This document shows, piece by piece, positions 26,098 through 48,968 of a stretch of 64,000 bases of DNA (positions are counted from its first letter, which is position 1; every line of letters starts with the position of its first letter). Under the pieces are notes generated by a model. The model did no database searches. It worked only from the letters and a program-made list of their open reading frames with translations, and was not told the DNA's origin. A program made the translations under genes and the position numbers. Origin of the DNA: Archangium violaceum (lineage in GTDB: Bacteria; Myxococcota; Myxococcia; Myxococcales; Myxococcaceae); contig NZ_CP069338.1 in NCBI RefSeq assembly GCF_016859125.1, positions 11,907,501 through 11,971,500 on the forward strand, read 5' to 3'.

Positions 26098-26133
26098 GAA
26101 GGGCCCGGCTCCGAAATGGAGACCGGGCCCTTC
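26098..26133. terminator. Hairpin repeat, copy 2 of 3
   Basis: GAAGGGCCCGGCTCC ... ACCGGGCCCTTC directly follows the secreted protein gene. Same element as at 25397 and 27647. Confidence 0.6.
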
Positions 26134-26282
26134 GCGCATCAGGAGGTGCCAAGGTTGAGTTGCAGCAGGCGCCGCGTGGGTCGGATGGCAGTCCCCATGC
26201 CTGGACGAGGTACGCGAGGGCCCGGGCAGAGCATGGGGTGGAGGAACTGGCCGCGCGGGCGGAACTCGCGAGGGGGAGCCGA

Positions 26283-27646: not shown

Positions 27647-27682
27647 GAAGGGCCCGGCTCCGAGATAGAAACCGGGCCCTTC
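27647..27682. terminator. Hairpin repeat, copy 3 of 3
   Basis: GAAGGGCCCGGCTCC ... ACCGGGCCCTTC between the converging low-GC gene (plus) and the holin-like gene (minus), consistent with a shared bidirectional terminator. Confidence 0.65.
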
Positions 27683-27704
27683 GTGCTTCAGCAGGAGGCG
27701 CGGC

Positions 27705-30161: not shown

Positions 30162-30541
30162 GCCCGAGATGTAGCCCCGCCTACCTCACCGGGTAAGTTT
30201 AGGCCGGAGGGCGGTCCGGAGGTGGGACGCGCGCGCAGAGGCGCATGTGCGACACCGGGGCACCCCCACCCTCAAAAAACGGCCTGCGGGCCAAAATCAG
30301 GATTGCTCGGCGCCCTGCAATCCTGCGCTCGCGGTTACCCCACGCTACCCCTGCGGGCACTTCAGCCGAAACTGTCGGACGACCCCCCGTTTTTTTGGGT
30401 TCTGAGGCCCTACCCCGGCCGTAAACGCGCGGAATCACGTCCCTGGGTCTGCCCGGAGGGGGTGTTGATCGGCGCAAAACCGGAGCGATCCACGCCCCTT
30501 CTCGCGGGTGTCACCTCGCAGTCAGCCCATGGAGGGCACCC
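30162..30541. other. Intergenic region before the late operon with two hairpins
   Basis: No supported gene. AGGATTGC/GCAATCCT (30299-30324) forms an 8-bp hairpin. On the minus strand it is followed by a short GGCC stem and a T6 run (the A run at 30276-30281), a possible minus-strand terminator. A T7 run lies at 30390-30396. CACCGGGTAA at 30187-30196 repeats a sequence from the xis-int control region. The late promoter is probably here. Confidence 0.45.
30492..30507 (+). repeat. Late-operon boundary motif, copy 1
   Basis: CGCCCCTTCTC followed by GCGGG, upstream of the first late gene, which itself starts further down with a normal GGAGGG ribosome site. Same motif as at 31309, 33488, 34869, 35934, 37707, 39833 and 44859. 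Confidence 0.5.
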
Positions 30542-31279
30542 ATGACGACCCCGACCAGCAGCAGCCCCACCCACAGCACCGAGCCCGTGAGCTTCGGGCA
30601 GATCGGCTTCGACGCCTACGGCAACCACCCGGGTCCCTACGGCAAGTGGGCCACCTTCGACGGTCGGCCCATGCCGAGCTGGAACGAACTGGGCCAGAAC
30701 ATCCCCGCGGGCAGCGGTGCCCTGACCCAGGAGCGCTGGGATGTGGCGGCGCAGGCGATCATCGCCGAGTACGAGCGCCGCAAGGCCGCTGCCAGGCCGA
30801 AGAGCCCCGTCTACGTCGGCACCATCAACGTCGATGCGTCCCAGGCTATGGAGTCGCTGGCGGAGCTGGAGTCCCGGGCCACGTCCGTGTGCGCCACCCT
30901 GGAGAGAGCGAACTCGCTGTCGGAGAAGCTCGGCTCGTCCGAGGCCAGCACCGCCGCCACGACGACGCAGGAGACGCCGGAGTCTGGCCCCGTCGCCTCG
31001 ATGACGTTGACGGCCTGGACGCCCGAGGCCGGAGCGGCGGTGGTCAGGCTCGCTCAGGGCAGCGTGCCCGCTGGTGTGGTCGAGGACGAGGGCCGCATCG
31101 ACCCGTTCCTCATGGGGCTTTCGGAGATCGCCGCCGCCACGCGCGACCTGGCCGAGGCCCAGCGGGCGATAGCTGCCTGCGATGACAGCGACGGCCCCGT
31201 CGCCGAGCTTATCGACGACGTGACGGAGGCGCTGCACACCCGGGTGAAGGCCCTCGCCCAGTTGCCGTCCGACGCCTGA
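30542..31279 (+). CDS. Phage protein of unknown function at the head of the late operon
   Basis: 245 aa, with GGAGGG upstream of the ATG. The N-terminus is polar (TTPTSSSPTHST); residues 20-60 are rich in Gly, Pro and aromatics (FDAYGNHPGPYGKW), and the rest is helical with Ala/Glu repeats. No family recognised. Its position just before the small terminase gene suggests a packaging or virion role. Confidence 0.65.
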   Translation: MTTPTSSSPTHSTEPVSFGQIGFDAYGNHPGPYGKWATFDGRPMPSWNELGQNIPAGSGALTQERWDVAAQAIIAEYERRKAAARPKSPVYVGTINVDASQAMESLAELESRATSVCATLERANSLSEKLGSSEASTAATTTQETPESGPVASMTLTAWTPEAGAAVVRLAQGSVPAGVVEDEGRIDPFLMGLSEIAAATRDLAEAQRAIAACDDSDGPVAELIDDVTEALHTRVKALAQLPSDA

Positions 31280-31308
31280 CGAGCCGCCTGGGAGGGGCGG
31301 TGTAGGTC

Positions 31309-31325
31309 CGCCCCTTCTCCGGGAC
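31309..31325 (+). repeat. Late-operon boundary motif touching the start codon, copy 2
   Basis: CGCCCCTTCTCCGGGAC runs directly into the ATG of the small terminase gene. CCC and GGG can pair across TTCTC. No Shine-Dalgarno sequence lies between the motif and the start. Confidence 0.55.
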
Positions 31326-31958
31326 ATGGCTCGTCCGAGGGGAATGCCGCCGGAGCTGCTCGATGGCCCGGTGGAGGGCGACGGCGGGGATGCGTCCATC
31401 GCCCCGGACCCTCTGGACGGGTACGAGCCCACAGGCCTGCGCGGGCCTCGGACGTCCCTCACACCGGAGATGGTGCTCGTCATCGCGCGAGAGATCGCCC
31501 GCACGGGGCTCCTCCGCTCCGCTGCTGCGATGGCGGGCACCACCGAGGACTGCCTCGATAAATGGCTGCGGAGGGGAAAGGACGCGGCCGCGCGGAAGAA
31601 GCGCAGCCTCTACACCCAGCTCTACATGGAGTGCGAGTACGCCCGAGCTCACCGGCGGGCGTACCTCATCAACCTCGGCGAGCGGTCCATCACGGACCGG
31701 CATATGAATCCGCGCTTCGCCACGTGGCTGCTGGCCGTCACGGAGCCGAAGGTCTTCACCGTTCCGCGAGAGGCGAATGCAGCGCAGCAGGGCAATGCGC
31801 TCGGCCCAGCCTTCGAGATGGTCACGCCCGAGCAGGCCATGCAGGCCTTGGAGGAGAAGGCCCGGAAGTTCCTCGAGCTGGAGGACAAGCGCGCCGCGAT
31901 GATCGCCGAGGCCACTGCGGCTGCTGAGCCCGAGCACGCGACCCCCGAGAGTGCGTGA
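31326..31958 (+). CDS. terS: Phage terminase small subunit
   Basis: 210 aa. A helix-turn-helix region (ARTGLLRSAAAMAGTTEDCL then DKWLRRG) is the DNA-recognition fold of small terminases. SLYTQLYMECEYARAHRRA and the following helices match the oligomerisation region, with an acidic helical tail that may contact the large subunit. It selects phage DNA for packaging. Its stop shares bases with the terL start (GTGATG). The start is preceded by the hairpin-like boundary motif and has no ribosome site. Confidence 0.78.
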   Translation: MARPRGMPPELLDGPVEGDGGDASIAPDPLDGYEPTGLRGPRTSLTPEMVLVIAREIARTGLLRSAAAMAGTTEDCLDKWLRRGKDAAARKKRSLYTQLYMECEYARAHRRAYLINLGERSITDRHMNPRFATWLLAVTEPKVFTVPREANAAQQGNALGPAFEMVTPEQAMQALEEKARKFLELEDKRAAMIAEATAAAEPEHATPESA

Positions 31959-33484
31959 TGGTGGCGAGCGCGGCGATACAGCAGTCCGGGGAGGACCTCT
32001 ACAAGGGCGTCACCCTGCTGTCCTCGGCTACGCAGGGACGCTTCTCGCTCTTCGACCAGCTCGTCCTGAAGCACCGGGCCGCGCGCATCAAGGAGTCCCT
32101 CACCCACGCGCTCGGCCTCACGCCCGCCGAGGTGCTCGCCCTGTACTACGAGCCGCGCTACTCGCTGCGGCCGGTCCAGAAGACGCCCTCGGAGGTGTGG
32201 CGTACGTGGTTCTTCCTGGGCGGCCGCGGCACTGGGAAGACGCATGCCGGCGCCTCGGCCGTCATCGAGGAGGCCCGCGCCGACCCGAACGCGGTGATGC
32301 TCATCGTCGGGCCTACCGACTCAGAGATTCGGAAGAACCAGCTCGAGGGCTCGTCCGGAATCCTCACCCTCTCGCCCCCCTGGTTCCGTCCGGCCCACAA
32401 GCGCAGCAAGCGCATGCTGGTATGGCCCAACGGAGCAGTCGCGCACTACGTGCCGGCCCAGGCCGGCCCCGACAAGTTCCGCGGCTACAACGTGTCCTTC
32501 GTCTGGGCCGACGAGATCGTGGCCTGGAAGAAGCACCCCGAGGACGTCTACGACCAGTGCCGCACGAAGTGCGCGCGCATCATCACCCCGCGCATGGAGC
32601 GACTGGGCCTGCCGGCGCGCGTCGTCATCACCACCACGCCAGCGCCCACCCCGCTCTTCCGGCAAATCCTCAAGGACAAGGACAGGCTCTTCCTCGCGCA
32701 GTCCACCACCTTCGACAACGCAGCCAACCTCGATCCGTCCTTCATCCGCCAGGCGCTGGCGCTCGCCAACTCCACGGATGGCCGGCGGGAGTACGGCGGC
32801 GAGCTCTTCTTCCCCATGGACGCGACGCTCTACAAACGCGTCAACTGGGACGCCGCCCGCGTGGAGAGCATTGAGACCATCCCAGCGCGCCAGGGTAAGC
32901 CGCTCTTCGACAAGGTCGTGGTCAGTGTGGACCCGGCCACCGGCGAGAAGAAGGGCGCGGACCTGCACGGCATCGTCGTGGTGGGGATTCGCGAGGAGGA
33001 CGACGGCCTGCTGCACACGTACGTACTGCAGGACCTGTCGCTTCAGGAGCCTGAGCCCACGGCCTGGGCGAAAGTCGCCGTGGACGCCGTCCACCGTTGG
33101 AAGCACCTGGCGCCGCCGAAGAAGACGTTCGTGTTCGCCGAGACAAACACGGGCGGGTCGATGGTGAAGAGCACCATCCGGGGCGTGGATGCCAAGGTGA
33201 AGGTGAAGGGCATGCGCGCCATGCAGTCGAAGGCCGAGCGCGCCGCCCCCGTGACGGCGCAGTGCGAGGCGGGCTTGGTGCACATGGTCGGAAAGCACCA
33301 CAAGCTGGAGAAACAGCTCTCCGAGTTCACCGGACAGGAAGGCGGCCACGGCCGCGACGACCGGGCGGACGCATTCGCGTGGCCGATCTATCTCTACGTG
33401 TGCCCGAAGCGGCAGAACGCTGGAGCAGCTGGCCGAGGTGCGCAGCAGGCCCAGGCTGGCACGGAGGACGAGGACGACGAGTAG
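31958..33484 (+). CDS. terL: Phage terminase large subunit
   Basis: 508 aa from ATG 31958 (a GTG one codon earlier is possible). ATPase domain: Walker A GGRGTGKT (88-95) and Walker B VSFVWADEI. Nuclease domain: SVDPATGEKKGADLHGIVVV for the first metal site and GRDDRADAFAW for the last. It drives DNA translocation into the prohead and cuts the concatemer. The gene order terS-terL-portal is standard. The C-terminal tail is Gly/Ala/Glu-rich. Confidence 0.93.
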   Translation: MVASAAIQQSGEDLYKGVTLLSSATQGRFSLFDQLVLKHRAARIKESLTHALGLTPAEVLALYYEPRYSLRPVQKTPSEVWRTWFFLGGRGTGKTHAGASAVIEEARADPNAVMLIVGPTDSEIRKNQLEGSSGILTLSPPWFRPAHKRSKRMLVWPNGAVAHYVPAQAGPDKFRGYNVSFVWADEIVAWKKHPEDVYDQCRTKCARIITPRMERLGLPARVVITTTPAPTPLFRQILKDKDRLFLAQSTTFDNAANLDPSFIRQALALANSTDGRREYGGELFFPMDATLYKRVNWDAARVESIETIPARQGKPLFDKVVVSVDPATGEKKGADLHGIVVVGIREEDDGLLHTYVLQDLSLQEPEPTAWAKVAVDAVHRWKHLAPPKKTFVFAETNTGGSMVKSTIRGVDAKVKVKGMRAMQSKAERAAPVTAQCEAGLVHMVGKHHKLEKQLSEFTGQEGGHGRDDRADAFAWPIYLYVCPKRQNAGAAGRGAQQAQAGTEDEDDE

Positions 33485-34865
33485 GCCGCGCCCTTCTCTC
33501 GGGCATGCCCGCTCCTCTCTGCGCTACCGGTTCCGTGCCGCACTGTCGGCCCTGCTGCTCGGCCCTGGGACCGGGCAGCCCGTCATCCACGCAATCCCTA
33601 TCACCACGTTCCACCCGCGCCGCGACAGCCGCGCCGTGCTCGACGCATACGCGGAGGATGCGTGGTTCCAGGCAGTAGTGGATACGGTGGCCGACCCGCT
33701 GGCCGCCACCCGCTTCCGGGTCTTCAAGCCCAACCCGCTCCGCTACCAGCCGGGCTCCTCTCGCGCCAAGGCGGCCCAGGCTTCGGTAAGGGCCATGGCA
33801 CCGGAACTCCGCGCGAAGTACCTCGCCGACGCGTCCGCCTCTGGCGAGTGGGTGGAGTTGGAAGACCACGAGCTGCTGCGAATCCTCTACGCGCCCCACC
33901 CGGACTACCCAGGGCAGTCCTGTCTGAAGCTGCTGGCGGTGTACCGGATGCTCCCTGGCGAGGCCTTCATGTGGCTGCGCCGTTCCGCAACGGGCGCCGT
34001 CGTCGGGTACGAGCCCATCCCGCCCCACTGCGTGACGATGACGCCGACACCGCAGGACCCGTACTACTTCGTCTCGTACAACCTGTTCGCTGGGCGTGTG
34101 CCAGCCTCGGACATCGTGTGGCTCAAGGGGTTGGATCCACGCAACCCGGCCGGGCGAGGCCTGGGCCGCGGTACCGCCCTGGCTGACGAACTCGACACCA
34201 GCGCCGCCATTCAGGCCGCACGCAAGGCCACCTTCAAGCGGGGTGGACTGCCCGCCGCCGTGGTGGGCGTCGACGAGGGGACTGCCGGGGACGATAGGGC
34301 GGAGGAGCTCCAGACGGATTACGAGGAACGCTTCACCAAACCGGAGAGCGCCGGACGCGTCTGGTTCGTGAGCGGGAAAGTGACGCTCTCCCAAATCCAA
34401 CAGGATTTCCGCGCCCTCCAGATGGACGAAGCCGCCGCAGGGCTCGAGCACCTGGCGCGCAAGGTGTTCAACATCCCCCCGGGGATGATGGGCGACTCAG
34501 CCGCCGGCACGCGCGCGAGCGCAGAGGAGGAGAAGTACACGCTGGCCGACAGGGCGATAGCGCCGTGGCTCGACAAGCTCGTGGCCGAGCTGAACCACGG
34601 GCTCGTCCCGCGCGTCGACCCGGACGCGGTGCTCATCGCGGATGACCCGCGCCCAGAGTCCTGGGAGCGCACCTTCAAGGTTGTGACGTCGGCACCGAAC
34701 GAAGGCGTCACCTGGAACGAGGTGCGCGCCTTGGGAGGGCTCCCGCCGGACCCGGAGCTCGAAGGGAAGCGCCCGCGCCCGCTGCCTGGGGCCCAGCCCG
34801 TGCTCGACACGCCAGCTACCCCCAGCAACCCGCCGCCGCCCCGCAGCGACGCCGAGCGCAGGTAG
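33438..34865 (+). CDS. Phage portal protein, start uncertain
   Basis: Up to 475 aa from GTG 33438, which would overlap terL by 47 nt. The first 25 codons look like a shadow of terL, so real coding probably begins near SSLRYRFRAALSALLLGPG (about 33513). A boundary hairpin ends exactly at ATG 33505, the pattern of other late genes, but that ATG is one base out of frame with the portal. Portal-family features: DAWFQAVVDTVADPLAATRF, LYAPHPDYPGQS, EAFMWLRR, then RKVFNIPPGMMGDS and a Pro-rich tail. It forms the dodecameric vertex ring for DNA passage. Confidence 0.85.
   Translation: MRSRPRLARRTRTTSRPRPSLGHARSSLRYRFRAALSALLLGPGTGQPVIHAIPITTFHPRRDSRAVLDAYAEDAWFQAVVDTVADPLAATRFRVFKPNPLRYQPGSSRAKAAQASVRAMAPELRAKYLADASASGEWVELEDHELLRILYAPHPDYPGQSCLKLLAVYRMLPGEAFMWLRRSATGAVVGYEPIPPHCVTMTPTPQDPYYFVSYNLFAGRVPASDIVWLKGLDPRNPAGRGLGRGTALADELDTSAAIQAARKATFKRGGLPAAVVGVDEGTAGDDRAEELQTDYEERFTKPESAGRVWFVSGKVTLSQIQQDFRALQMDEAAAGLEHLARKVFNIPPGMMGDSAAGTRASAEEEKYTLADRAIAPWLDKLVAELNHGLVPRVDPDAVLIADDPRPESWERTFKVVTSAPNEGVTWNEVRALGGLPPDPELEGKRPRPLPGAQPVLDTPATPSNPPPPRSDAERR
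33488..33504 (+). repeat. Late-operon boundary hairpin, copy 3
   Basis: CGCGCCCTTCTCTCGGGC: GCCC and GGGC pair around TTCTCTC, and the stem ends directly at ATG 33505. This ATG opens a 57-codon frame that does not match the portal frame. Confidence 0.55.
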
Positions 34866-34883
34866 CCGCCGCTTCTCTTCATC

Positions 34884-35144
34884 ATGCTCATCAGCGGCTG
34901 TTACCTGGACAGATTAGGCATTGAGCGCACCTCGGCGGTCGAACGCGTTGATGCTGCTCGCGACCTCTGGGTCATTCACCGCAAGCACCCCGATGGCCGC
35001 AAGGCGTGTCGTCAGATGCGCCGCGGTCTCCAGTTGGACCGCGCCCGGCATGGAGTCGCGCTCTACCGGCGCAAAGGGAGGGGCTGGTGGATGTTGAGCG
35101 CGATCCCGGTGAATCGCCGCCAAGGCTGGGTGAGGGTCAGATGA
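34884..35144 (+). CDS. Small basic phage protein
   Basis: 86 aa, rich in Arg (KACRQMRRGLQLDRARHGVA, LYRRKGRGWW). The stop overlaps the protease ATG (ATGA), suggesting coupling. A degenerate boundary motif (CCGCTTCTC at 34869-34877) lies just before its start. No family recognised; perhaps a small DNA- or head-associated protein. Confidence 0.55.
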   Translation: MLISGCYLDRLGIERTSAVERVDAARDLWVIHRKHPDGRKACRQMRRGLQLDRARHGVALYRRKGRGWWMLSAIPVNRRQGWVRVR

Positions 35145-35929
35145 GGACCCGAGGCATCACCCTCAAGCGGATGGAGTCTCCGCCGCGGCTCTCTGTTGCG
35201 ACGGCGGAGGGGCCCGTGTTCGCAATGCTGGACCCGCCAGGCGTTGACGACGCCCACGGCGACACCATGGACGCCGGAGCGCTACGCCTGCCCGAGGGCG
35301 TGAACGAGGTGCCCCTCTATTGGGTGCACTCGTACCACGTAGGCATCGTCCCTGATGCCTCGCCAGAGCAGCGCCTGCCCGTGGGCTCCGCCACCGTCTG
35401 GGAAGAAGAGGGGCAGTGGTACTTCGTCCCCTGCTTCAACCTCCTCACGGACCTCTCCCAGAAGGTGAAGGGCGCTGTCGACGCGGGCGACATCGCCGCC
35501 TGCAGCATTGGGTACCGGACCGTCCGCGCCACGCCCAACGGCAAGGGCCCCGATGGCAAGGGTGAAGACGTTCACGAGGCGAGGCTGCTCGAGGTGAGCC
35601 TTGTCGATGTTGGCGCCAAGGCTGGCGCCGTGAGGATCAAGATGGCCGACGAACCGAAGAAGCCCGAGGAGAAGAAGCCGGAGCCACCAGCCGTCGACAT
35701 GGCGGACCTCTACACGATGGTGAAGGCCATCCACGCGAAGATGTTCCCGCCCGAGAGCGAGGCGAAACCGCCCGAGTCCGAGGGCAAGGCCACCGAGCCG
35801 CCCGCGACGAAGGACGACAAACCTCAGACCGACGTGCCCCAGGACGAGAGCGCCAGCGAGAACGAGGCGCCGCCCAGCACGGAGGACGAGGACCCTGTCA
35901 CGAAATGGCTGCGCAGCCTCGCCGCGTAA
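35141..35929 (+). CDS. HK97-type prohead protease with scaffold-like tail
   Basis: 262 aa from ATG 35141. Protease domain (1-165): YWVHSYHVG supplies the catalytic His, ACSIGYR the Ser, and LLEVSLVDVGAKAGA is the conserved last strand of U35/S78-type proteases. Residues 170-262 are Lys/Glu/Pro-rich (EPKKPEEKKPEPP) with one predicted helix (DLYTMVKAIHAKMF), as in proteases fused to a scaffold. It probably cleaves scaffold and capsid N-termini during maturation. It precedes the major capsid gene as usual. Confidence 0.85.
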   Translation: MRTRGITLKRMESPPRLSVATAEGPVFAMLDPPGVDDAHGDTMDAGALRLPEGVNEVPLYWVHSYHVGIVPDASPEQRLPVGSATVWEEEGQWYFVPCFNLLTDLSQKVKGAVDAGDIAACSIGYRTVRATPNGKGPDGKGEDVHEARLLEVSLVDVGAKAGAVRIKMADEPKKPEEKKPEPPAVDMADLYTMVKAIHAKMFPPESEAKPPESEGKATEPPATKDDKPQTDVPQDESASENEAPPSTEDEDPVTKWLRSLAA

Positions 35930-35987
35930 CCACCCGCCCCTTCTCCACGACGAACGGACACCTCCCTCTCACACGGAGCCGCGTGCA

Positions 35988-37196
35988 ATGTCTCCCAAAC
36001 CCCAGCCGTCGCCTGCCAACCCCCAGCCCCCTGCCCCGCCGCCTATCCCTCCTGCGGTGGCCGCCGCCATCGAGCCCATCGTGGTGAAGACCGTTGAGGC
36101 GGCGATGGCCTCCCGCGCCGCTGCCGCGCCCGCTGCCCCCACGCCCGTGGTGACCGGAGTGCGTGACCTGCAGATGGACCCGCCCGAGGGGCGGCTCTGG
36201 CAGGCCCGCGCGGGCGTGGCCATCAAAATCATCTACCTCGACCGGGCCAAGGCCCTCGGTGTGGCGAAGGGTGAGCACTTCCAGCGCCTGGAGCAGTACG
36301 TGACCCGCTGCAAGGCAGTGGGTGCTTTCGCCAGCATCTTCGGCCAGGGCGGTGAGCGCCTCCCCGTGGTGGAGTCCGCCGAGATCATCGAATTCCTGAA
36401 GGGGCCGTCGCTCCTCGTCAGCCGGCCGGGACTGCGCAAAGCCTCCGGGTACGGCGGCAAGTTCGTGGTCGGCAGGCAGAACGAGCGCGCGGTCGTGTAC
36501 TGGGCGGCCGAGGGCGAGCCCGTCGAGAAGACGGAGATCAAGCACGGGCTGATGGAGTTGGGTGCGCACAAGGCCGTGGGCCGGGTAGGCCTCTCCAACG
36601 ATCTGATGCGTCGTGGGGATTCGTCCGCCTCTGCTGACGTCGGCGCCGAGTTGCAGCAGGAGATGGCTCTGCTCTTCGACAAGGCCGGACTCTTCGGGAA
36701 GGGCAACAAGCAGCCGCTGGGCATCCTCGAGGAGGTCGAGAAGGAGATGATCTCCGAGGCCACGGGTGCGCTCTCCGATACCGACGCGACCAAGAAGCTG
36801 GCTGACCTCGATAGCCTTCCGGCTGCGCTGGAGAAGAAGAAGCACAAGCTGGATGACTCGGCATTCTACTTCATGCCCAGTGACACCTTCTGGCACTTGC
36901 GGGGACTGCGGGATGCGTCCGGGTGGGTGTTCGAGGGACTGCGCGACCTGAAGAACCCGACGATCAACGGGTTCCCGGTGGAGAGAAACCCCGAGCTCCT
37001 CTTCGGCTGGGAGCACATCGGATTCGGCCTGGCCTCCCAGCTCTACTTCGGCTCGGCCGCCGAGATGGAGATGACGATCGGCGAGAACGCCAGCGACTTC
37101 GTCAACGACATGCAGACGCTGCGGGTGGTGGGCTACGCCGACTGGAAGCTGCGGCACACCACCGCCTTCGCGTTCAAGAAGAAGGTCAAGTACTAA
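35988..37196 (+). CDS. Major capsid protein, HK97 fold
   Basis: 402 aa. The Pro/Ala-rich N-terminal 50 residues resemble a cleaved delta domain. The remainder has capsid features: FASIFGQGGERLPV, PGLRKASGYGGKFVVGRQN, LGAHKAVGRVGLSNDLMRR (E-loop and spine-helix regions), NPTINGFPVERNPEL and an A-domain end (LRVVGYADWKLRHT). It follows the protease and precedes the small connector-side genes. Confidence 0.88.
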   Translation: MSPKPQPSPANPQPPAPPPIPPAVAAAIEPIVVKTVEAAMASRAAAAPAAPTPVVTGVRDLQMDPPEGRLWQARAGVAIKIIYLDRAKALGVAKGEHFQRLEQYVTRCKAVGAFASIFGQGGERLPVVESAEIIEFLKGPSLLVSRPGLRKASGYGGKFVVGRQNERAVVYWAAEGEPVEKTEIKHGLMELGAHKAVGRVGLSNDLMRRGDSSASADVGAELQQEMALLFDKAGLFGKGNKQPLGILEEVEKEMISEATGALSDTDATKKLADLDSLPAALEKKKHKLDDSAFYFMPSDTFWHLRGLRDASGWVFEGLRDLKNPTINGFPVERNPELLFGWEHIGFGLASQLYFGSAAEMEMTIGENASDFVNDMQTLRVVGYADWKLRHTTAFAFKKKVKY

Positions 37197-37229
37197 CCCG
37201 GGCACGCCCCGAGAAGGATGAGACGAGAG

Positions 37230-37673
37230 ATGAACTTCATCGTCAGGAACAACATCGGCGCCGTCGTCAAAACGGACAACCTGGCGCTCGCCCCCGCCGC
37301 TCGCTCCGCCGGAACGCGCCAGGGCAGCACCTTCGCTCCCGGGCGCTGGGGGTCGGCGGTGCTGGTCGGCCTCACTGGAGCCACCACCGGCACTCCCACG
37401 GGCTTCGAAGTCACCTACGAGGTGGAGACGCGGGACGGCAGCGACACCGATAACGAATGGGTGGCGCTGAAGAACATGGACGGGGCCGCCGTGGAGCTCA
37501 CGGTGATCCAGGCGTCCAAGGCCGTCGAGTTGGACATCGACTTCCAGTACATCCCCGTGGGACACGACGAGCTGCGGGTGGTGGAGACGGTGAGTTTCAC
37601 CGACGGCACCACCCCCACCGTGGTGACGGGCGCGCTCCTGGTGCTGGGCGGCTCCTCCACCCTGCCCGTCTGA
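37230..37673 (+). CDS. Small virion protein, possible capsid decoration
   Basis: 147 aa from ATG 37230; ATG 37218 directly after GAGAAGG is an alternative. Rich in beta-forming residues with many Thr and Val (GFEVTYEVETRDGSD, VTGALLVLGG). No family recognised. Its position directly after the capsid gene is usual for decoration or head-fibre proteins. Confidence 0.6.
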   Translation: MNFIVRNNIGAVVKTDNLALAPAARSAGTRQGSTFAPGRWGSAVLVGLTGATTGTPTGFEVTYEVETRDGSDTDNEWVALKNMDGAAVELTVIQASKAVELDIDFQYIPVGHDELRVVETVSFTDGTTPTVVTGALLVLGGSSTLPV

Positions 37674-37706
37674 CGCAATACCCACGCAGCCCTCCCGGCC
37701 GGGGAG

Positions 37707-37722
37707 CGCCCCTTTTCTGGGG
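37707..37722 (+). repeat. Late-operon boundary hairpin, copy 6
   Basis: CGCCCCTTTTCTGGGG: CCCC and GGGG pair around TTTTCT. The last G is the first base of GTG 37722, an in-frame upstream start for the amidase. Confidence 0.5.
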
Positions 37723-37754
37723 TGTCTCCCCGTCGCCGTTTCTGGAGGCTGCTC

Positions 37755-38354
37755 ATGGACACCCCCTCCCCCACCATCCCCCTCGTCATCGACTTTTCCA
37801 GCCCCAACCGCTCCGCCCGCGAGGAGAACGTGCGCGTGGACACGGTGCTCATCCACCACACGGGCAACGTCAATGGGCGGTGGAGCAACCAAAGTGCGCT
37901 CACCTGGCTATGCACCAAGGGCAGCATGGTGTCCGCCCACTACCTCATCACCACGGGCGGAATCGTTTACCGACTCGTCCCCGAGGACCTGAAGGCGTGG
38001 CATGCGGGCGAGAGCCACATGCCGTGGGAGGAGCCGAAGAAGGGCGAGAGCGTCAACGACCGCTCCATCGGCATCGAGATCGTGAACCCCGGCGATGGCG
38101 TCACGCCTTTCACCGAGGCACAGTACAAGGCACTCGCCTGGCTCGTGTCGGACATCGTGCGAAGGCTGGAGTGGGATTGCGCCACATTCATGTACGGCGT
38201 CACGGTTGACCTGATTCCCACTGCTCGCGGGCACCGTGGGTACGTCCTCGGCCATCGCGACGTGGCCCCGGGCCGGAAGACGGACCCGGCGGACAACTTT
38301 GACTGGACGCGCATCCGCAAGGACCTGGCGTCGCAATACTCGGGGGCGGTGTGA
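37755..38354 (+). CDS. Phage endolysin: N-acetylmuramoyl-L-alanine amidase
   Basis: 199 aa from ATG 37755, which has GGAGG at good spacing; GTG 37722, at the edge of a boundary hairpin, would add 11 residues. Amidase_2/PGRP fold: zinc ligands in VLIHHTGN (H34/H35) and in GHRDVAPGRKTDP; SAHYLITTGGIVYRLV and NDRSIGIEIVNPGDG are conserved core motifs. It cleaves the sugar-peptide bond of peptidoglycan. There is no signal peptide, so it needs a holin, probably the gene at 27705. A lysis gene between capsid and connector genes is unusual. Confidence 0.92.
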   Translation: MDTPSPTIPLVIDFSSPNRSAREENVRVDTVLIHHTGNVNGRWSNQSALTWLCTKGSMVSAHYLITTGGIVYRLVPEDLKAWHAGESHMPWEEPKKGESVNDRSIGIEIVNPGDGVTPFTEAQYKALAWLVSDIVRRLEWDCATFMYGVTVDLIPTARGHRGYVLGHRDVAPGRKTDPADNFDWTRIRKDLASQYSGAV

Positions 38355-39022
38355 TGGCGAGCGAGCTCGACTTCACCACGCTGGCGCGCGCGGCCGCGCG
38401 GCTCAAGGTGCCCACCTCGGACGCCGAGCTGCCAGCCCTCATCACCGCGGCGAGCCAGGCCCTGGCGGATTGGCTGGGCTACGAGGCCCACCTGCGCGAG
38501 AACGTCCAGGAGACGGTGCCGAGCGAGGGCGGCCGCGTCCTGTTCCTCCGGGCCGGGGCGGTGCGGCGCATCGTGTCCGTCACCGTGGCCGGCGCCGAGG
38601 TGCCCGCCAGCGAGTACTTCCTGGAGAGCCCCAGGTACGGGCGCATCCTGAACCGCCGCGGAGGCTGGCCCTTTACCGGGCAGTGGACGGACGGTGTCGC
38701 GCCCATGCCGCTCCGTGCCCACGACACGGGAGAGATCGTGGTCACCTACGACGCGGGCTGGCGCACGCCCGGCCAGGAGGCCCTGGCCCTCGCGGCGGAC
38801 CCGGCGAGCACCCTCACCAGCGACCTGCCGGCGCCGCTCGAGGAAGCCGCGCTCATCACCCTCACGGCGCTGCGCTCGGGCGCAGGGAGAGACCCCAACG
38901 TCATCAGCCGGAGCATCGGCGGTGGCTCCGTCACCTGGGCGGCTGACCGCACCGCGGTGCCCGCCCTGGCCCAGCAGCTCGCGCGCCCCCACCACAAGTC
39001 CACCCGGAGAAAGCAGTCATGA
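38354..39022 (+). CDS. Head-tail connector (gp6-like adaptor)
   Basis: 222 aa from ATG 38354 (TGATG overlap with the amidase). The helical N-terminus (LPALITAASQALADWLGYE) followed by strands (YFLESPRYGRILNR, GEIVVTYDAGW) and a final helical part matches phage head-tail adaptors that bind below the portal. The next three genes overlap by 4 nt each, as in other neck modules. Confidence 0.7.
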   Translation: MASELDFTTLARAAARLKVPTSDAELPALITAASQALADWLGYEAHLRENVQETVPSEGGRVLFLRAGAVRRIVSVTVAGAEVPASEYFLESPRYGRILNRRGGWPFTGQWTDGVAPMPLRAHDTGEIVVTYDAGWRTPGQEALALAADPASTLTSDLPAPLEEAALITLTALRSGAGRDPNVISRSIGGGSVTWAADRTAVPALAQQLARPHHKSTRRKQS

Positions 39023-39360
39023 GCCTCTTCCTCGAGGACATGCGCGAGACGTTTCACCTCCGGCGGTTCCTGCGCATGACGGACAACAACCGTCGCGAGG
39101 AGTACGGCCCAGTCGAGCCGCACCCGTGCCGCTGGGCCCCGGGCGCTCGTCGCGTCCAGTCTGCCGAGGGAAAGCAGGTGGTGGCCACTGGCACCCTCTA
39201 CACCACCGCCGTCATCGCACAGGAGGACCTGGAGAAGGTGCTGATCTGGCTACCGGGGGCGGACCCCGCCGACTACAAGCGCAGCCGCAAGCCCGTGCAG
39301 AGCTTCGTCCACAAGGACCTGGAGACCGGCAGCTTCGACCACAGCGAGGTCGTCCTGTGA
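39019..39360 (+). CDS. Probable head-closure/stopper protein
   Basis: 113 aa. Short beta-rich protein (EDMRETFHLRRF, CRWAPGARRVQSAEGKQVV, ATGTLYTTAVI) in the position of head-closure proteins. ATGA overlap with the connector and GTGA overlap with the next gene. Function from gene order only. Confidence 0.6.
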   Translation: MSLFLEDMRETFHLRRFLRMTDNNRREEYGPVEPHPCRWAPGARRVQSAEGKQVVATGTLYTTAVIAQEDLEKVLIWLPGADPADYKRSRKPVQSFVHKDLETGSFDHSEVVL

Positions 39361-39827
39361 GGCTCCGGGACATCGAGCTCGACGTGGCCACGCTGCTCGA
39401 GGCCGCGGGCCTGGGCACGCTTTCCGGCGACACGCCCACGCTGTACCCGGGCCCCTTCCCCACCAGCGCCCCGGACGAGATGATTGCCATCATCGACGCA
39501 GGCGGCGACCCGCCGGAGAAGTACCTCGCCGACACGGGACTCAGCCTCCACCGGGACACGGTGACGGTGCTGGTGCGCGGCACCCGCTCGCCGGGCAGCG
39601 ACAAGGAGACGGGGGACCGGGCGCGCGCGGCCTGGTCTGCACTGTACGACCTGCAGCCCGACGGATACGTGCGGGTAGAGCCCACCGAGGGCAGACCCAC
39701 CCGGCAGCCACCAGACGACGAGGGGCGGCCACGGTGGGTCTTCTCCGTGGAGCTGGAGTACCTGAGCGCCAGCGCCCCGGGCGCCGTGGTGCCCCAACTC
39801 GCACCGGAAGACGTCCCTCGTCGCTGA
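39357..39827 (+). CDS. Tail terminator / minor capsid-type protein
   Basis: 156 aa from GTG 39357. Begins RLRDIELDVATLLEAAGLGT; TVTVLVRGTRSPGSDKETGD followed by RARAAWSALYDLQP, and RPRWVFSVELEYLS, match the Minor_capsid_3-like tail-terminator family. It should cap the tail tube at the head-tail joint. Frame and start are fixed by the 4-nt overlap with the previous gene. Confidence 0.7.
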   Translation: MRLRDIELDVATLLEAAGLGTLSGDTPTLYPGPFPTSAPDEMIAIIDAGGDPPEKYLADTGLSLHRDTVTVLVRGTRSPGSDKETGDRARAAWSALYDLQPDGYVRVEPTEGRPTRQPPDDEGRPRWVFSVELEYLSASAPGAVVPQLAPEDVPRR

Positions 39828-39832
39828 TGAGC

Positions 39833-39849
39833 CGCCCCTTCTCAGGGGT
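39833..39849 (+). repeat. Late-operon boundary hairpin, copy 7
   Basis: CCGCCCCTTCTCAGGGGT: CCCC and GGGG pair around TTCTCA and end one base before ATG 39850. No Shine-Dalgarno sequence is present. Confidence 0.6.
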
Positions 39850-40290
39850 ATGGCAAGTAACCGGGCATACCGAGCGCGAGTGAAGGTGGAGGTGGATACC
39901 TCCGACCTAGAAAGGCTGCGCTCGCAACCCCAAGTCGTCCTTCGCGACCTGGATCGCGCCGTGCTCGATGCGACCCAGCGCGGCATGGATCAGGCAGCAT
40001 TCAGCGTCCCGCGTGGCGGAGCTCCGAACGATCCGCTCGACCTGGCTGACACCGCTTTTGTCAGCCTTCCGCACCACAACGCGCAGCGCATGTCCACCAC
40101 CGCAACGGGCGGCTACGCGCACCCGCAGGCTGGACCCATCCATGCGGGCTGGCACTTCGGTGAGCAGACAAAGAATCCCCCGCCCAACTGGCTGCGCAAC
40201 GCCTTCAAACGCGGTGTGCGCTCGCTGCTGCGCAAGGGCGTGGCAGCTCAGCTGAAGAAGTCCCTGGCTAAGCTCTTCCCCCAGAAGTGA
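39850..40290 (+). CDS. HK97 gp10-like neck/tail-completion protein
   Basis: 146 aa. VKVEVDTSDLERLRSQPQVV and VLRDLDRAVLDATQRGMDQA form the N-terminal helical part; GGYAHPQAGPIHAGWHFGEQ then NPPPNWLRNAFK is the conserved motif region of gp10-like proteins. The C-terminus is basic. The start follows a boundary hairpin. Confidence 0.7.
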   Translation: MASNRAYRARVKVEVDTSDLERLRSQPQVVLRDLDRAVLDATQRGMDQAAFSVPRGGAPNDPLDLADTAFVSLPHHNAQRMSTTATGGYAHPQAGPIHAGWHFGEQTKNPPPNWLRNAFKRGVRSLLRKGVAAQLKKSLAKLFPQK

Positions 40291-40299
40291 GGCAACCAC

Positions 40300-40728
40300 A
40301 TGTCTGGCTACATCATCACGCACAAGGTCCCTATTCACGTCACCGCTGAACCCGACGAGGTGCTCTCCGAAGCCAACAAGCTGGAGGCGGGCTCATCCTT
40401 CAACATCACCGATGCGACCGAGTTTGAGGAGCTGAAGCACCTCAACTCCGACGGCTACACGGAGAACGTGCCCGTGTGGTCGAATATCACCGGCACCATT
40501 GCCGGCACGCGGAAGTCGGACAGTGCCACGCAAGCGGTGATGGAGGCCGCGCGCAAGGCCAAGGAGAGCTTCTTCATTCACGTGGTGGAGAACCCCGCTG
40601 CCGTGGCCGGGAGCAAGGGCCAGCGGTTCGAGGTCTTCATCGAGTCCGACGAGAAGAACTACGAGGCCGGCACCACGCTCAAGTTCAACTATCCGCTCAG
40701 GTTCAAGGGCGGCCCCGTCCCTTTCTAA
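40300..40728 (+). CDS. Major tail tube protein
   Basis: 142 aa. Compact beta-rich protein (YIITHKVPIHVTAEPDEV, GTIAGTRKSDSATQAVME, GQRFEVFIESDEKNYEAG, TTLKFNYPLRFKG) located between the neck genes and the tail chaperones, the usual place for the tube subunit. Sequence similarity to a named family is not certain; position and size decide the call. Confidence 0.7.
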   Translation: MSGYIITHKVPIHVTAEPDEVLSEANKLEAGSSFNITDATEFEELKHLNSDGYTENVPVWSNITGTIAGTRKSDSATQAVMEAARKAKESFFIHVVENPAAVAGSKGQRFEVFIESDEKNYEAGTTLKFNYPLRFKGGPVPF

Positions 40729-40767
40729 CCGCAGCACTCTCAATCCCTCACACAGGAGACGTACGCA

Positions 40768-41178
40768 ATGACCGACCTCAAGTCGAAGCTGGGCAATGCC
40801 AACTGGCGCAAGTACAAGGACACCACCATCGATGTCGACGGCGAGGAACTCGCGGTCGTCATCCGCCGCGCGCCTCCCGGCGTGGCAGTGCAGGTCCTGG
40901 AGGAAGCAAGAAAGACAGGCGACGTCGACGAGGAGAACAATCCCAAGGGCGAGAGCGGTGCGATGCGACTCCTCGCGCGCATGGTGGCCACGGTGCTCTT
41001 CGAGCCGGGCGCGGTGCGGCCGCTCTTCGACAGGACGAACGAGGAAGACATCACCACCATCACCACGGCGCCGTGGCTCCTGGACATCTCGGACGACGCG
41101 ACGGCCGCGCTCGGCGCATCGGGAGCGGTGGTGGAGAAGATGAAGGGAAACTCCGAAGCGACCCCGATCGAGCATTAG
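40768..41178 (+). CDS. Tail assembly chaperone, short form (gpG-like)
   Basis: 136 aa. Begins TDLKSKLGNANWRKYKDTTI, with PPGVAVQVLEEARKTGDVDE and MVATVLFEPGAVRPLFD, followed by ITTITTAPWLLDISDDATAA. Preceded by an AGGAG-type ribosome site. It lies between the tube and tape-measure genes and ends 27 nt after a GGGAAAC slippery site, which defines it as the G-type partner of a G/GT pair. It coats the tape measure during tail assembly and is not in the virion. Confidence 0.85.
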   Translation: MTDLKSKLGNANWRKYKDTTIDVDGEELAVVIRRAPPGVAVQVLEEARKTGDVDEENNPKGESGAMRLLARMVATVLFEPGAVRPLFDRTNEEDITTITTAPWLLDISDDATAALGASGAVVEKMKGNSEATPIEH

Positions 41179-41384
41179 AGATCAGGGTCGCGAGAATCCA
41201 AGGATGGACGGAGCAGGAGACGGCGGCCCAGTCCTTCGAGTGGATTGCGACCATCGCGGCAGATCACCTGCTCGAGCAAGAGGGCGACGGGATGGACGCC
41301 ACCAGCGGTCCGCCTGGCGTCACCTCAAGTCCAACCCCGGGACGCAGACGGGTCACCCGTACCACGCAGTACAGCGCGGCGTAG
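40768..41384 (+). CDS. Tail assembly chaperone, -1 frameshift fusion (gpGT-like)
   Basis: Predicted 205 aa: 128 codons in the first frame through AAC 41149-41151, then a shift by -1 so that reading continues CTC CGA AGC. The extension reads LRSDPDRALEIRVARIQGW, TEQETAAQSFEWIATIAADH and a Thr/Pro/Arg-rich end. It contains no stop until 41384, 19 bp before the tape-measure start. The extension should bind the tape measure or tail tube, as gpT does in lambda. Confidence 0.8.
41145..41151 (+). promoter_or_regulatory. Programmed -1 frameshift site GGGAAAC
   Basis: Read in the chaperone frame as G GGA AAC, a canonical X-XXY-YYZ heptamer close to lambda's GGGAAAG. The only long open frame beyond it is the -1 frame. 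Confidence 0.82.
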
Positions 41385-41403
41385 CAGCGCGAGGAGTAGC
41401 AAC

Positions 41404-44055
41404 GTGGCTGGAGCTGGCAATGGACCGGGCGGGCTCAAGGTCGGAGACCTCTACGTCTCCGTCACGGCCTCCATCGGCGAGATGGTGAAGACGCTCGGCC
41501 AGGTGGTGGACGCCGTCGAAGAGGCTGCGGACCAGATCGAAGAGAACATGAGCAAGGCGGCAGCGGCCCTGGGAGACTTCTCCGAGGGTCTGCTGTCCGT
41601 TGCAGGGCTCGCTGCCGCATCCGTCGCGGTGGCGGGCCAGACGTCCTACGCGGCCTCGCAGGAGATCGAGAAGCTCAAGGACGCCACCATGCTGCTCGGC
41701 CGGGAGGTGGGGGTAGTCTTCCTCCCGCTCGTCCGAGAGATGACCACGCTCGTCAAGACGGCCATCGCTACGTGGCGGAATCTCTCCGAGACGCAGAAGC
41801 AGAACATCGTGGACATGGTGAAGTACTCCGCCATCGTCGGTGGCGTGGGTCTCGCCATGGTGCGGGCGCTCATCTTCACCAAGTCCTTCTTTGAGGGCAC
41901 GGTGGTGCTCGTCCGCGCTTTGCGTGTCCTGGGCACCAGCATGATGGCCACGAAGGCGGTGACGACGCTCTTCACCGGCTCTGTCGAGAAGGCAGGGTGG
42001 GCGCTCGTCTACCTGCGACAGGCAACCGTCGGGCAAGTCTTCGCGCAGATGACTTCGGGACTGACGTCCTTCACCGCCACACTCAAGGAACTACCCTCCG
42101 CCACAAAGGGGCTGGGCAGTTCCTTCACGGCGCTGCTGCCGAAGATCGGAGCCGTCGCGCTCCCACTGCTCGCCGTGGCCGCAGCGGTTGGCGCCATCGT
42201 CCTCTTTGCAGGGTCGCTCTACAAGAGCTGGGACAACATCGTCTTTCTCTGGAAGGAGAGCACTGCCGACATCGTGGACAAGATGAAGGACCTCGGAGAG
42301 AAGGCTGCCGACTTCTTCGGCAAGCTGATGGGCTCCGTGACAGACTTCATCTCGAAGCTCGCCACGGCCATGCTCAACGCCGTCTTCGACAGAGTGAAGG
42401 CGGTCGCCAAGTACCTCGAGGCGGTGGCCTGGAGACTTCAGGCCGAAACGCTGGCAAAGAACCTCGCGCAGGTTCAGAACCTCTCAGCCGAGGCCTTCAT
42501 GAAGAGGCTTGAGGAGGGGGTCGCAGCCATCGGCGGCGTCATCAGCGACACAGCCACTGCCGCCGGCAAGGCCCTTTCGGAGTCAACAAAGACCGCCCGG
42601 GAGAACGTGACATACGGCCTGAAGCACAGCCTGGAAGGTGCGGAGATGCTGGGCCGGGAGCTGGTCAAGGCGCTGCACCTCGAGGAACTCTTGGCGCTGA
42701 AGGACAAGCTGCTCGGTGCTGTGCCCGAGGTGGGCGACCCCAACTCCGTCACGGTACCCACCGAGATGGAGACGGAGACGGTCGGAGAGGTGGAGAGCGA
42801 CTACCTCAAGCGCCTGGTCCAGCGAAGCAACGACATCATGGACGCCTATCTCTCCATGTTCGCGAAGCAGGCACTGAGCGCCGCCGGCCTGGTGACGGGG
42901 GCGCTCGTGGAGGCCGCGCTGGAGGTGAAGAAGAAGTCGGACGAGATCACCCAGGCCATGCGTGACGCCCGCGACAGTCTCAAGAGCAAGCTGGTGAGCC
43001 GCATCGGTGACATCGCCGACATCCTCAACTCTTTCGCTCAGGGCGTGGCCGCGGGCGGGATTTGGGGCGGCGTGATTGCGGTTTTAGCCGACATCCTCAC
43101 CCGCTCCGAGGGCTTCAGAACGCTCGTTGAGATGATCAACACCCTCATCCAGCTGGTGGCCGACTCGCTAGGGCAGTTGCTCGGCCCCTTGCAGCCGCTG
43201 GTGGGCGCCATCGGCTATCTGGTGCAGTCGATTATGGGCGCCCTGACACCCATTCTGCAGTACCTCCTCGAAGCCGTGGATCCGCTCATCCCCGTCCTGG
43301 TCGGGCTGGGGGAGGTGTTTGCGGCGCTGCAGCCCGTCTTCCAGATGCTCGCGGGTGTCCTCCAGCTCACGGAGGTGCCCCTGCGGCTGCTCGCCGAGGT
43401 GGCCCTGCGGCTCTTCTTCGAGTTGGTGCGCGGGCTGGCCATCGGCATCCTCGAGATTGCCAAGGGCATCGCTGGCGTGTGGAACGGAATCATCAAGGCT
43501 GTGCAGCGCGTCTTTCGGGCCCTTGGAGACATTGAGGTGGCCGGCATCAAACCGTTTGACTTCATGAACGACTGGGCGCGCTCCCTCAACGACGCGAAGA
43601 TATCCACCACCGGGCTCAACGACTCCCTTTCCAAGCTGAAGGACATGACCTGGGACGCGGCTCGGGCAAAGGCTGATGAGACAGCGGAGGTTTTGAAGAA
43701 TCGCGCGGCATTGGAGAAGGCAAACGAGAGCCTGTCCAATGTGCCCACCACTTGGAAGGTGACGCTTGCTCGCTTCAACGCCCAGAGGGAGCGGGACGGA
43801 CAGACGAGCCGTGGCCCTCTTCCGGTGGACACGTACGTCACGCCGACGCAGCCGGCGAGCTCGCCCTCTGCCTCTCCCGCTGCGGGCAGCTCGCCAGCAT
43901 CCTCGGCTCCGTTGGTGGGCGTCGTGAATATTGCCACGCGCGATCTCTTCTCCGGCCTGCAGGACCTGCAAACCAAACTGGGCGATATCGCGTACCGCCA
44001 CCGAGGCTCGGTGAGCGGGATCCTGGGCGCAGCCAGGCGAATGGGAGGCGACTGA
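41404..44055 (+). CDS. Tail tape measure protein
   Basis: 883 aa from GTG 41404 with GAGGAG upstream. Long, mostly helical, with coiled-coil stretches, several hydrophobic segments (GAVALPLLAVAAAVGAIVLF; GIWGGVIAVLADIL; PLVGAIGYLVQSIMGAL) that may form a DNA-injection channel, and a Pro/Ser-rich part near the end. At about 0.15 nm per residue, 883 residues suggest a tail near 130 nm. It follows the chaperone pair as in all siphoviruses. Confidence 0.9.
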   Translation: MAGAGNGPGGLKVGDLYVSVTASIGEMVKTLGQVVDAVEEAADQIEENMSKAAAALGDFSEGLLSVAGLAAASVAVAGQTSYAASQEIEKLKDATMLLGREVGVVFLPLVREMTTLVKTAIATWRNLSETQKQNIVDMVKYSAIVGGVGLAMVRALIFTKSFFEGTVVLVRALRVLGTSMMATKAVTTLFTGSVEKAGWALVYLRQATVGQVFAQMTSGLTSFTATLKELPSATKGLGSSFTALLPKIGAVALPLLAVAAAVGAIVLFAGSLYKSWDNIVFLWKESTADIVDKMKDLGEKAADFFGKLMGSVTDFISKLATAMLNAVFDRVKAVAKYLEAVAWRLQAETLAKNLAQVQNLSAEAFMKRLEEGVAAIGGVISDTATAAGKALSESTKTARENVTYGLKHSLEGAEMLGRELVKALHLEELLALKDKLLGAVPEVGDPNSVTVPTEMETETVGEVESDYLKRLVQRSNDIMDAYLSMFAKQALSAAGLVTGALVEAALEVKKKSDEITQAMRDARDSLKSKLVSRIGDIADILNSFAQGVAAGGIWGGVIAVLADILTRSEGFRTLVEMINTLIQLVADSLGQLLGPLQPLVGAIGYLVQSIMGALTPILQYLLEAVDPLIPVLVGLGEVFAALQPVFQMLAGVLQLTEVPLRLLAEVALRLFFELVRGLAIGILEIAKGIAGVWNGIIKAVQRVFRALGDIEVAGIKPFDFMNDWARSLNDAKISTTGLNDSLSKLKDMTWDAARAKADETAEVLKNRAALEKANESLSNVPTTWKVTLARFNAQRERDGQTSRGPLPVDTYVTPTQPASSPSASPAAGSSPASSAPLVGVVNIATRDLFSGLQDLQTKLGDIAYRHRGSVSGILGAARRMGGD

Positions 44056-44056
44056 C

Positions 44057-44854
44057 ATGGCACTCGTCACACTCAACGGCGTGGAGGTGGAGTGCACCGA
44101 CTCAGAGTGGGAGCCGGTGCGGTTGGGCGAAGTGGTGCGTAGCATCAACGGCATCCCGCGCTCTACGCAGCTCATCTCAACGAAGCGCAACTTTCGCTTC
44201 ACCACCGGCCCCCTGCCCGAGGGCGAGGCAGAGGCGCTTAGGGCGCTCATTGACGGCGAGGGCCACGTACTGACCTTCGAGGACAACTCGTCGTCGACGT
44301 CGCACCTCTACACCTCTCGGGAGGTTCCCCCTTCGTTTGTAGGCGCTGGTGTGGCGAGGTCCACGGCCGCGCGAAGGAAGGGGTTTGCCGGACTCACCGT
44401 CCCGGCCAACCAGTTGGTGGTTTGGAATCTCGGCTTCAGCCTGTACGTGGCTGGAACGTTCATCGGTTGGGTGCGCGAAGGCACGGGCCTGTGGAGGCAC
44501 GTCATCAACACGGCGGGCCGCCTGTATATCGATGGGGTGGCGAACTCTGACGAGTGGCTCTTCGGGTACATCTCGGGCGATTCGCTGTTCATCGGTGACA
44601 TTGACGGCCAGGGTGTGGCCACGGCCTACGACGACGTGGTGGCACTGCCATTCGAGGTGCCCGAGTCATGGGTGCCCGGGCTTCACTACTTCCACAGCCT
44701 CTTCGCGTGGCCCGGGCCCTCTCAGGTGTATGCCTGGGGTCCCCGCTTCCCCCCCAACGGTCTGCTGTGCGTTGGACAGGCCGGCACTGCGAAGGCAGGC
44801 CCACGACTCACCAGCATCTCCGAGCGCTTCGACTTCACCCTCTACGGCACCTGA
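44057..44854 (+). CDS. Distal tail-type protein
   Basis: 265 aa, starting 1 bp after the tape measure stop. The N-terminal 100 residues (VTLNGVEVECTDSEWEPVRL, RFTTGPLPEGEAEALRALI) look like a tail-end structural fold; the rest is beta-rich with many Trp and Gly (YVAGTFIGWVREGTGLWRHV, AGRLYIDGVANSDEWLFGY), resembling a jelly-roll or lectin-like domain. Position after the tape measure fits the distal tail protein that nucleates the tip. Confidence 0.65.
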   Translation: MALVTLNGVEVECTDSEWEPVRLGEVVRSINGIPRSTQLISTKRNFRFTTGPLPEGEAEALRALIDGEGHVLTFEDNSSSTSHLYTSREVPPSFVGAGVARSTAARRKGFAGLTVPANQLVVWNLGFSLYVAGTFIGWVREGTGLWRHVINTAGRLYIDGVANSDEWLFGYISGDSLFIGDIDGQGVATAYDDVVALPFEVPESWVPGLHYFHSLFAWPGPSQVYAWGPRFPPNGLLCVGQAGTAKAGPRLTSISERFDFTLYGT

Positions 44855-44858
44855 GCCC

Positions 44859-44876
44859 GCGCCCCTTTTTCGGGGC
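44859..44876 (+). repeat. Late-operon boundary hairpin, copy 8
   Basis: GCGCCCCTTTTTCGGGGC: a 5-bp stem (GCCCC/GGGGC) around TTTTTC that ends exactly at ATG 44877. No Shine-Dalgarno sequence. The T-rich loop replaces the usual TTCTC. Confidence 0.6.
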
Positions 44877-48560: not shown

Positions 48561-48968
48561 TCAGGCCGCCTCGCGGAGCAACTCGTTGAGCTCGCCCCGG
48601 GAGGCTGCCTCGGCGCACCCCGAGACGACGGTGCTGGGTGGCCGGGCGTTGGAGTCCACCACGTGCCGGGCGTAGTCGTCCGCCAGCTCGGCAGCGGCGG
48701 CGGACATGAAGGCCCCCGCCCAGCGGTACCCGCGCATCCTGTCCGGCTCCTTCACGGAGAGGAACGTCGCCTTGGCACCGCTCGGCCAGCGCACCTCCTG
48801 GTAGGCGGGGTGCCACGTCACGCCCGCGCTCTTCAGCAGGGTGGCCACCGCGAAGCCGGTGAGCCGGGCGCTCTCCCTGGACGAGGCCACGAAGCCGAGC
48901 CGCGTGTCCGGGTCGGACACCGCCATCCCCAGCATCATCGCGGCCACCTCTCGAATCGACATGTTCAT
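48561..48968 (-). CDS. Small protein resembling part of a terminase ATPase domain
   Basis: 135 aa from ATG 48966-48968, with GAGGAGG upstream and an ATGA overlap with the sigma factor stop. TRLGFVASSRESARL, a hydrophobic stretch, VRWPSGAKATFLSVKEPDRM and RGYRWAGAFMSAAAAELADD follow the order seen in large terminases between motor motifs (compare VWPNGAVAHYV, DKFRGYNVSFVWADE of this phage). Walker A is absent and the Walker B acidic pair is replaced by Ala-rich sequence, so no ATPase activity is expected. The likeness is by eye and may be coincidental. Confidence 0.55.
   Translation of the reverse strand: MNMSIREVAAMMLGMAVSDPDTRLGFVASSRESARLTGFAVATLLKSAGVTWHPAYQEVRWPSGAKATFLSVKEPDRMRGYRWAGAFMSAAAAELADDYARHVVDSNARPPSTVVSGCAEAASRGELNELLREAA

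Follow-up and report, generated by a model that had tools for sequence, protein, structure and literature searches.

A conserved motif at late-gene starts in a family of myxobacterial prophages as a putative promoter for a candidate phage sigma factor

The T4 late promoters that depend on gp55 are built on a TATAAATA element and have no -35 element, whereas the classical -10 sequence is TANNNT. Stoperators of the L5 type are sites bound by the phage repressor. In Deinococcus, leaderless genes typically have their -10 motif some 6-7 bp ahead of the ORF, and this ORF-adjacent -10 of Deinococcus-Thermus is a classical -10 region that is read by the host RpoD (PMC12340547). Cluster K mycobacteriophages have Start-Associated Sequences (SAS) with the consensus GGGATAGGAGCCC and the Shine-Dalgarno core AGGAG, which are found in the non-structural half only (PMC3203893, PMC12699233); their function is stated there as needing verification (PMC12699233). 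The stoperators of L5 offer a comparison for an operator role (PMC3203893).

The motif considered here, whose core is the 10-mer CGCCCCTTCT and whose 11-mer form is CGCCCCTTCT(N), recalls each of these systems in part. As with T4 gp55, a phage sigma factor, here putative, would act together with host RNA polymerase at a short, -10-only element of late genes; unlike in T4, it would do so at GC-rich sites, many of them directly next to a start codon, and the phages are myxobacterial prophages. The TATAAATA element of T4-type late promoters is absent and the element is CGCCCCTTCT instead; the candidate sigma factor matches RpoS over regions 2 to 4, and its proposed likeness to gp55 is one of role. 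Unlike the Deinococcus-Thermus -10, the block is not TANNNT, and it is GC-rich, phage-specific and accompanied by a putative phage sigma factor. Nevertheless, it resembles the ORF-adjacent -10 in lying about 6-7 nt before the start, in the place of the Shine-Dalgarno (SD) sequence (PMC12340547). Like SAS, it is a short asymmetric repeat a few nucleotides before many phage starts, rare in hosts and with a GGG/CCC outer symmetry, but it comes without an SD, differs in sequence and sits at structural genes (PMC3203893, PMC12699233). The motif is neither a T4-type promoter by sequence nor an SAS by defining features, and it may work in either way. The best explanation combines phage-sigma promoters with ORF-adjacent -10 elements of the Deinococcus kind. 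A literature search on myxobacterial phages and prophages, phage sigma factors, late promoters and leaderless phage mRNAs gave no description of the motif among the matches listed.

The prophage and its motif sites

The window, that is, the whole stretch of 64,000 nt that was analysed, belongs to a 12.68 Mb genome of Archangium violaceum and contains a tailed-phage prophage. Late-type genes of this prophage lie on the + strand at about 30.5 to 47.3 kb and include those for the small and large terminase, portal, head protease, major capsid protein and endolysin, as well as head-tail connector proteins, tape measure and tail genes. The minus-strand side of the window carries a DUF6884 protein and a C5 cytosine methylase (52777-56504, -), and a repeat resembling GGGCCCGG...CCGGGCCCTTCG occurs three times on the left side of the late genes, where ORFs start or close to such starts (25401-25442, 26101-26142 and 27650-27691). 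The same chromosome holds a second, closely similar prophage (G000:C1, about 9.18-9.20 Mb; loci L082 and L101). Eight late proteins of the two prophages are 100% identical, and the tape measure and tail proteins 90, 83 and 75%. The reading frame of the portal gene is broken near its beginning in the window copy (33482-33700) and intact in the L082 copy; decay or an assembly error could be behind this.

A first-pass annotation of the window had described a repeated hairpin motif at eight late-gene boundaries, and all eight are indeed present on the + strand (Table 1). In the usual layout, a short intergenic gap holding CGCCCCTTCTN is followed by 6 nt and then by ATG. The GGG partner that had been described as reaching the start codon ends 1-2 nt from the ATG at 31309, 33489, 39833 and 44860 and touches the GTG at 37707. 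At 33489, the abutted ATG and the portal ORF are in different frames in the window copy. An inverted repeat, GGGGCGG/CCGCCCC, at 31294-31314 overlaps into the motif at 31309 and was not seen at the same boundary of the viral contig L003.

Table 1. Motif sites and candidate sigma factor gene in the window
Feature	Position	Strand	Remarks
Leadered-type site	30493..30503	+	Exact; ATG 30542 lies 38 nt past the 11-mer, with GGAGG ahead of the ATG
Start-adjacent-type site	31309..31319	+	Exact; small terminase ATG 31326, 6 nt past
Variant ahead of portal gene	33489..33498	+	1 base shorter; ATG 33505, out of frame here
Variant	34867..34877	+	1 mismatch; ATG 34884, 6 nt past; without GGG partner
Leadered-type site, major capsid gene	35935..35945	+	Exact; ATG 35988, 42 nt past, with GGAG ahead; without GGG partner
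Variant ahead of endolysin gene	37707..37717	+	1 mismatch; GTG 37722, or ATG 37755 with TGGAGG
Start-adjacent-type site	39833..39843	+	Exact; ATG 39850
Variant, tail gene	44860..44870	+	2 mismatches; ATG 44877, 6 nt past
Divergent sigma-70 family protein, 330 aa, proposed motif reader	48965..49957	-	Profile and structure matches

All four exact matches in the window lie at the boundaries of Table 1, as do 2 of its 11 one-mismatch matches, and between 18 and 64 kb the exact 10-mer occurs solely at these four late sites. With up to two mismatches, however, the window alone is hardly enriched and its count uninformative (58 matches vs 46.0 ± 6.6 in shuffles, with 6 of 100 shuffles reaching 58). 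It is the related prophages, and not the window count alone, that settle that the motif is real beyond chance.

Conservation in related prophages

A terminase search of 147 genomes from the class gave matches in 38. Group I consists of the 23 genomes with a close terminase (55-94% identity outside the own genome), group II is defined by a distant form (35-42%), and 15 genomes have only the distant form or remnants. Loci of up to 20 kb were fetched around many of the terminase matches. The late-side set, which leaves out the window, consists of 28 loci (517.6 kb): 27 prophage stretches and L003. In this set, CGCCCCTTCT is found 172 times vs 2 times for its reversed form, and no other 10-mer comes near it in frequency 17-18 nt ahead of ATG, where it has 112 distinct cases. 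By contrast, the exact 10-mer has 0 copies in eight loci of the syntenic sister group, group II (159.4 kb; L100, a remnant with the motif, is not among the eight), and 0 copies in phage Mx8.

The motif search in relatives that had been proposed with the first-pass annotation found the same boundaries occupied in related phages. The motif is present at 26 of 27 TerS boundaries, 21/22 for the protease, 19/21 for the capsid, 20/21 for g13 and 25/27 for the portal (counted with the L082 protein; the start of the window's portal ORF is too long), rarely or never at g11 (0/20), g12 (0/19), g14 (0/13), g08 (1/21) and g10 (2/21), and partially at g15 (7/18), g17 (6/17), the large terminase (4/28), the tape measure (4/17) and the tail gene (4/14); these counts are not independent, as the loci are related and some prophages are near-identical. 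The motif is at matching boundaries in a viral contig whose large terminase is 70% identical. Nor is the motif equally frequent inside genes, which would have counted against a role at gene boundaries: by the rules of classing used here, only 9 of the 183 distinct exact sites fall away from gene starts. In G082, where the tape-measure and tail genes are on the opposite strand, the motif is turned along with them.

Exact sites at gene starts number 163 in the 28 late-side loci (518 kb) vs 2 in 11 other-side stretches (219 kb), a contrast that is weaker than it looks because the other-side stretches may extend beyond the prophage end into host DNA and hold 5 of the 9 exact sites not at gene starts. 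Both of the other-side gene-start sites belong to L112, a stretch that starts some kb upstream of its prophage's terminase.

The pattern CGCCCCTTCTCN6ATG gives 39 matches in the 147 genomes vs 0 when reversed. By coordinates, contigs or neighbourhoods with a close terminase account for 25 of them and terminase remnants for 2, and 12 lie elsewhere. The own genome contributes 8 matches of this 6-nt form vs 0 reversed, while the form with 7 nt before ATG gives no signal there (2 matches vs 1 in the reversed control). A contig scan with a longer pattern returned 22 stretches, 11 of them in Myxococcaceae, Myxococcus or Corallococcus records and the other 11 being lone matches from different phyla or classes. 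No close relative of this phage family is present in the named phage records searched: among the 20 listed of 135 terminase matches the best has 35% identity, and all 135 are below 60%. The repeated motif is confirmed as real, conserved and phage-specific.

Site classes and a candidate sigma factor

Distinct sites from the window (20-58 kb), L003, L064-L091 and L101-L118 were classed by the start that follows them. Of the 183 exact ones, 126 have an ATG or GTG 6-7 nt on, 48 lie upstream of an SD-bearing start and 9 are neither. The abutting rule is passed by 4.3% of random positions; the leadered class is itself defined by the SD, and the informative figure for it is 48 of the 57 non-abutting sites vs 18.7% of random positions. 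Among leadered exact sites, the start lies 29-52 nt on in 47 of 48 and at 21 nt in one, and capsid genes are mostly of this kind. A pyrimidine-purine step is seen at positions 16/17 in 30 of the 48, the top value of 13 neighbouring positions, and it is here that abutting sites have the first base of their start codon.

When one mismatch is allowed, 188 distinct sites abut a start, at a spacing of 7 nt (107 sites) or 6 nt (81 sites) past the 11-mer. The base before the start codon is C or T in 180 of them, and an SD-like 4-mer at -20 to -4 is found in 17. In the window, the sites at 30493, 35935 and 37707 have an SD-bearing start further down. One-mismatch sites taken by themselves are noisier (n=194; 62 next to a start, 53 of the leadered kind with an SD and 79 of neither kind). 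In 89 exact late-strand sites, there is no conserved block upstream to -60 except for 1-2 bases directly before the motif, and a search for a -35 by position-wise information gave nothing over background.

The proposed reader of the motif is a divergent protein encoded on the minus strand (Table 1), which, judging by profile and structure matches, is a member of the sigma-70 family. The window protein matches TIGR02937 with E 7e-7 and the Pfam region 2 model with E 0.002, both below the curated cut-offs (Pfam, NCBIfam). Within its family, 18 of 19 members match this sigma70-ECF model, TIGR02937 (E up to 0.01), and the family profile built from the 19 aligns to RpoS chains over regions 2 to 4 (E 9e-12, profile 71-272); the tryptophan pair of the aligned RpoS stretch is not kept. 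The best Foldseek matches of an AlphaFold model are sigma-S, sigma-A and sigma-32 chains with TM-scores of about 0.24, the predicted structure being only fair (mean pLDDT 70, pTM 0.41).

Of the 23 group I genomes, 22 encode the putative sigma factor, G056 having only a fragment of it; the group I genome that lacks it is G060, whose terminase is near the end of a 30-kb contig. Outside group I, there is a fragment in 1 of the 15 genomes with a distant or remnant terminase (G117) and 0 in the 109 others, or 1/124 together. Viral contigs were also picked by the DNA motif alone, 39 being tested from 80 listed of 98 stretches, in addition to L003. The protein is present in 11 of 13 having at least two listed motif matches and in 6 of 26 having one, several of the tested contigs being apparently the same DNA as genomes already counted. 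Two motif-bearing viral contigs without it equal in length a contig of G057 (29,279) and nearly one of G060 (29,918 vs 29,938), and G057 carries the gene on other contigs. Named phages gave no match at E 0.01 when one divergent family member was the query. The co-occurrence of protein and motif is not specific, as other genes of these phages co-occur too; the protein is singled out as the candidate reader by its biochemical kind, and not by an association of presence and absence.

A putative promoter and alternative readings

The motif is quite probably the core of a phage promoter that is read by the phage sigma factor and gives leaderless mRNAs where it abuts a start. From sequence features, we infer the promoter activity, the transcription start, the pairing of sigma factor and motif and the late timing. 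In this model, the phage-encoded sigma-70-like factor would direct host RNA polymerase to CGCCCCTTCT(N), which would serve as a -10 element of the extended type and has no conserved -35 partner, and transcription would begin about 6-8 nt past the motif. A start codon at that point would make the mRNA leaderless or nearly so (0-5 nt), with no need for an SD, while a start codon about 30-50 nt further would entail a leader with an SD. The promoter would probably be a late one. The fixed geometry of 6-7 nt and the pyrimidine before the start, as at a typical -1/+1 step, argue for this model. It is also favoured by the split into abutting and leadered sites, by the pyrimidine-purine step at 16/17 and by the absence of an upstream block. 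The same boundaries being used across phages, the concentration on the late side, the lack of exact copies in the sister-group loci and Mx8 and the motif turning with its genes in G082 all point the same way. Finally, the sigma-70 family matches of the candidate reader and its presence in nearly all group I genomes and in many of the viral contigs picked by the motif also speak for the model. It should be noted that such a GC-rich -10 element would be unusual.

The annotation had proposed that a phage protein or an RNA-processing step acts on the hairpin. What stands of this is a phage-specific signal in the place of the ribosome site, probably served by a phage protein; the hairpin as the object and a translational or processing step are unsupported, as the arms do not covary and 48 of the 57 non-abutting sites precede an SD start. 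One form of the proposal is that the transcribed hairpin, CCCC-TTCT-GGGG, is a translational control element at the start, which a phage protein or the ribosome would recognize in place of the SD. The motif does abut starts that mostly lack an SD, the GGG partner is frequent there, and the start-adjacent class folds better (mean -6.0 kcal/mol in 126 sites vs -3.5 in 48 leadered ones). Nevertheless, the 5′ arm persists at sites that lack a GGG partner, among them most capsid gene sites, and at those with an SD-bearing start about 30-50 nt away. Covariation of the arms is absent: the cognate stem sum is 737 vs 730 ± 6.9 for swapped arms, with 95 of 500 shuffles attaining the cognate value. Variant 5′ arms, which were included because exact sites have a fixed 5′ arm, show no pairing advantage with the partner from their own site (220 vs a mean of 226). 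A conserved hairpin is therefore not supported, and translational control through it is unlikely. A promoter element read by the candidate sigma factor is preferred because it explains more. A G at positions 14 and 15, however, is found in 54% and 58% of leadered exact sites and in 82-88% of abutting sites (one-mismatch sites included). Its presence in leadered sites means that it does not depend wholly on the start codon, but its being commoner in the start-adjacent class is not predicted by a promoter alone and leaves room for a discriminator or translational role.

Cutting of a polycistronic RNA just past the motif, by an endonuclease or phage factor, would also leave leaderless and leadered 5′ ends and hence the same two gene classes. 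Yet the RNA pairing is not conserved and the linked sigma factor would be left unexplained, and such processing seems very improbable. An operator or stoperator-like site, at which a phage repressor or other DNA-binding protein would block these genes in the prophage, is hardly likely either. The motif is asymmetric, oriented with transcription and located in short intergenic gaps, as this would have it, but the strict spacing of 6-7 nt to the start and the split into abutting and leadered sites would be unexpected.

The putative promoter could be taken further, albeit as a doubtful extension. The sigma factor may read a GC-rich element that has no -35 and is set a single step ahead of many start codons; transcription and translation starts would then coincide as a leaderless switch. 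Read-through RNA would fold with GGGG before the AUG and silence each gene until its own promoter fires.

What had been an unexplained repeat becomes a specific and testable pair, a putative sigma factor and its element, in a family of myxobacterial phages. If the promoter model is true, these phages would have a GC-rich core promoter without a -35 partner and a regulon that relies largely on leaderless mRNAs. They would also provide a model for the role of start-associated repeats in other phages, and the element might serve as an orthogonal promoter for high-GC hosts.
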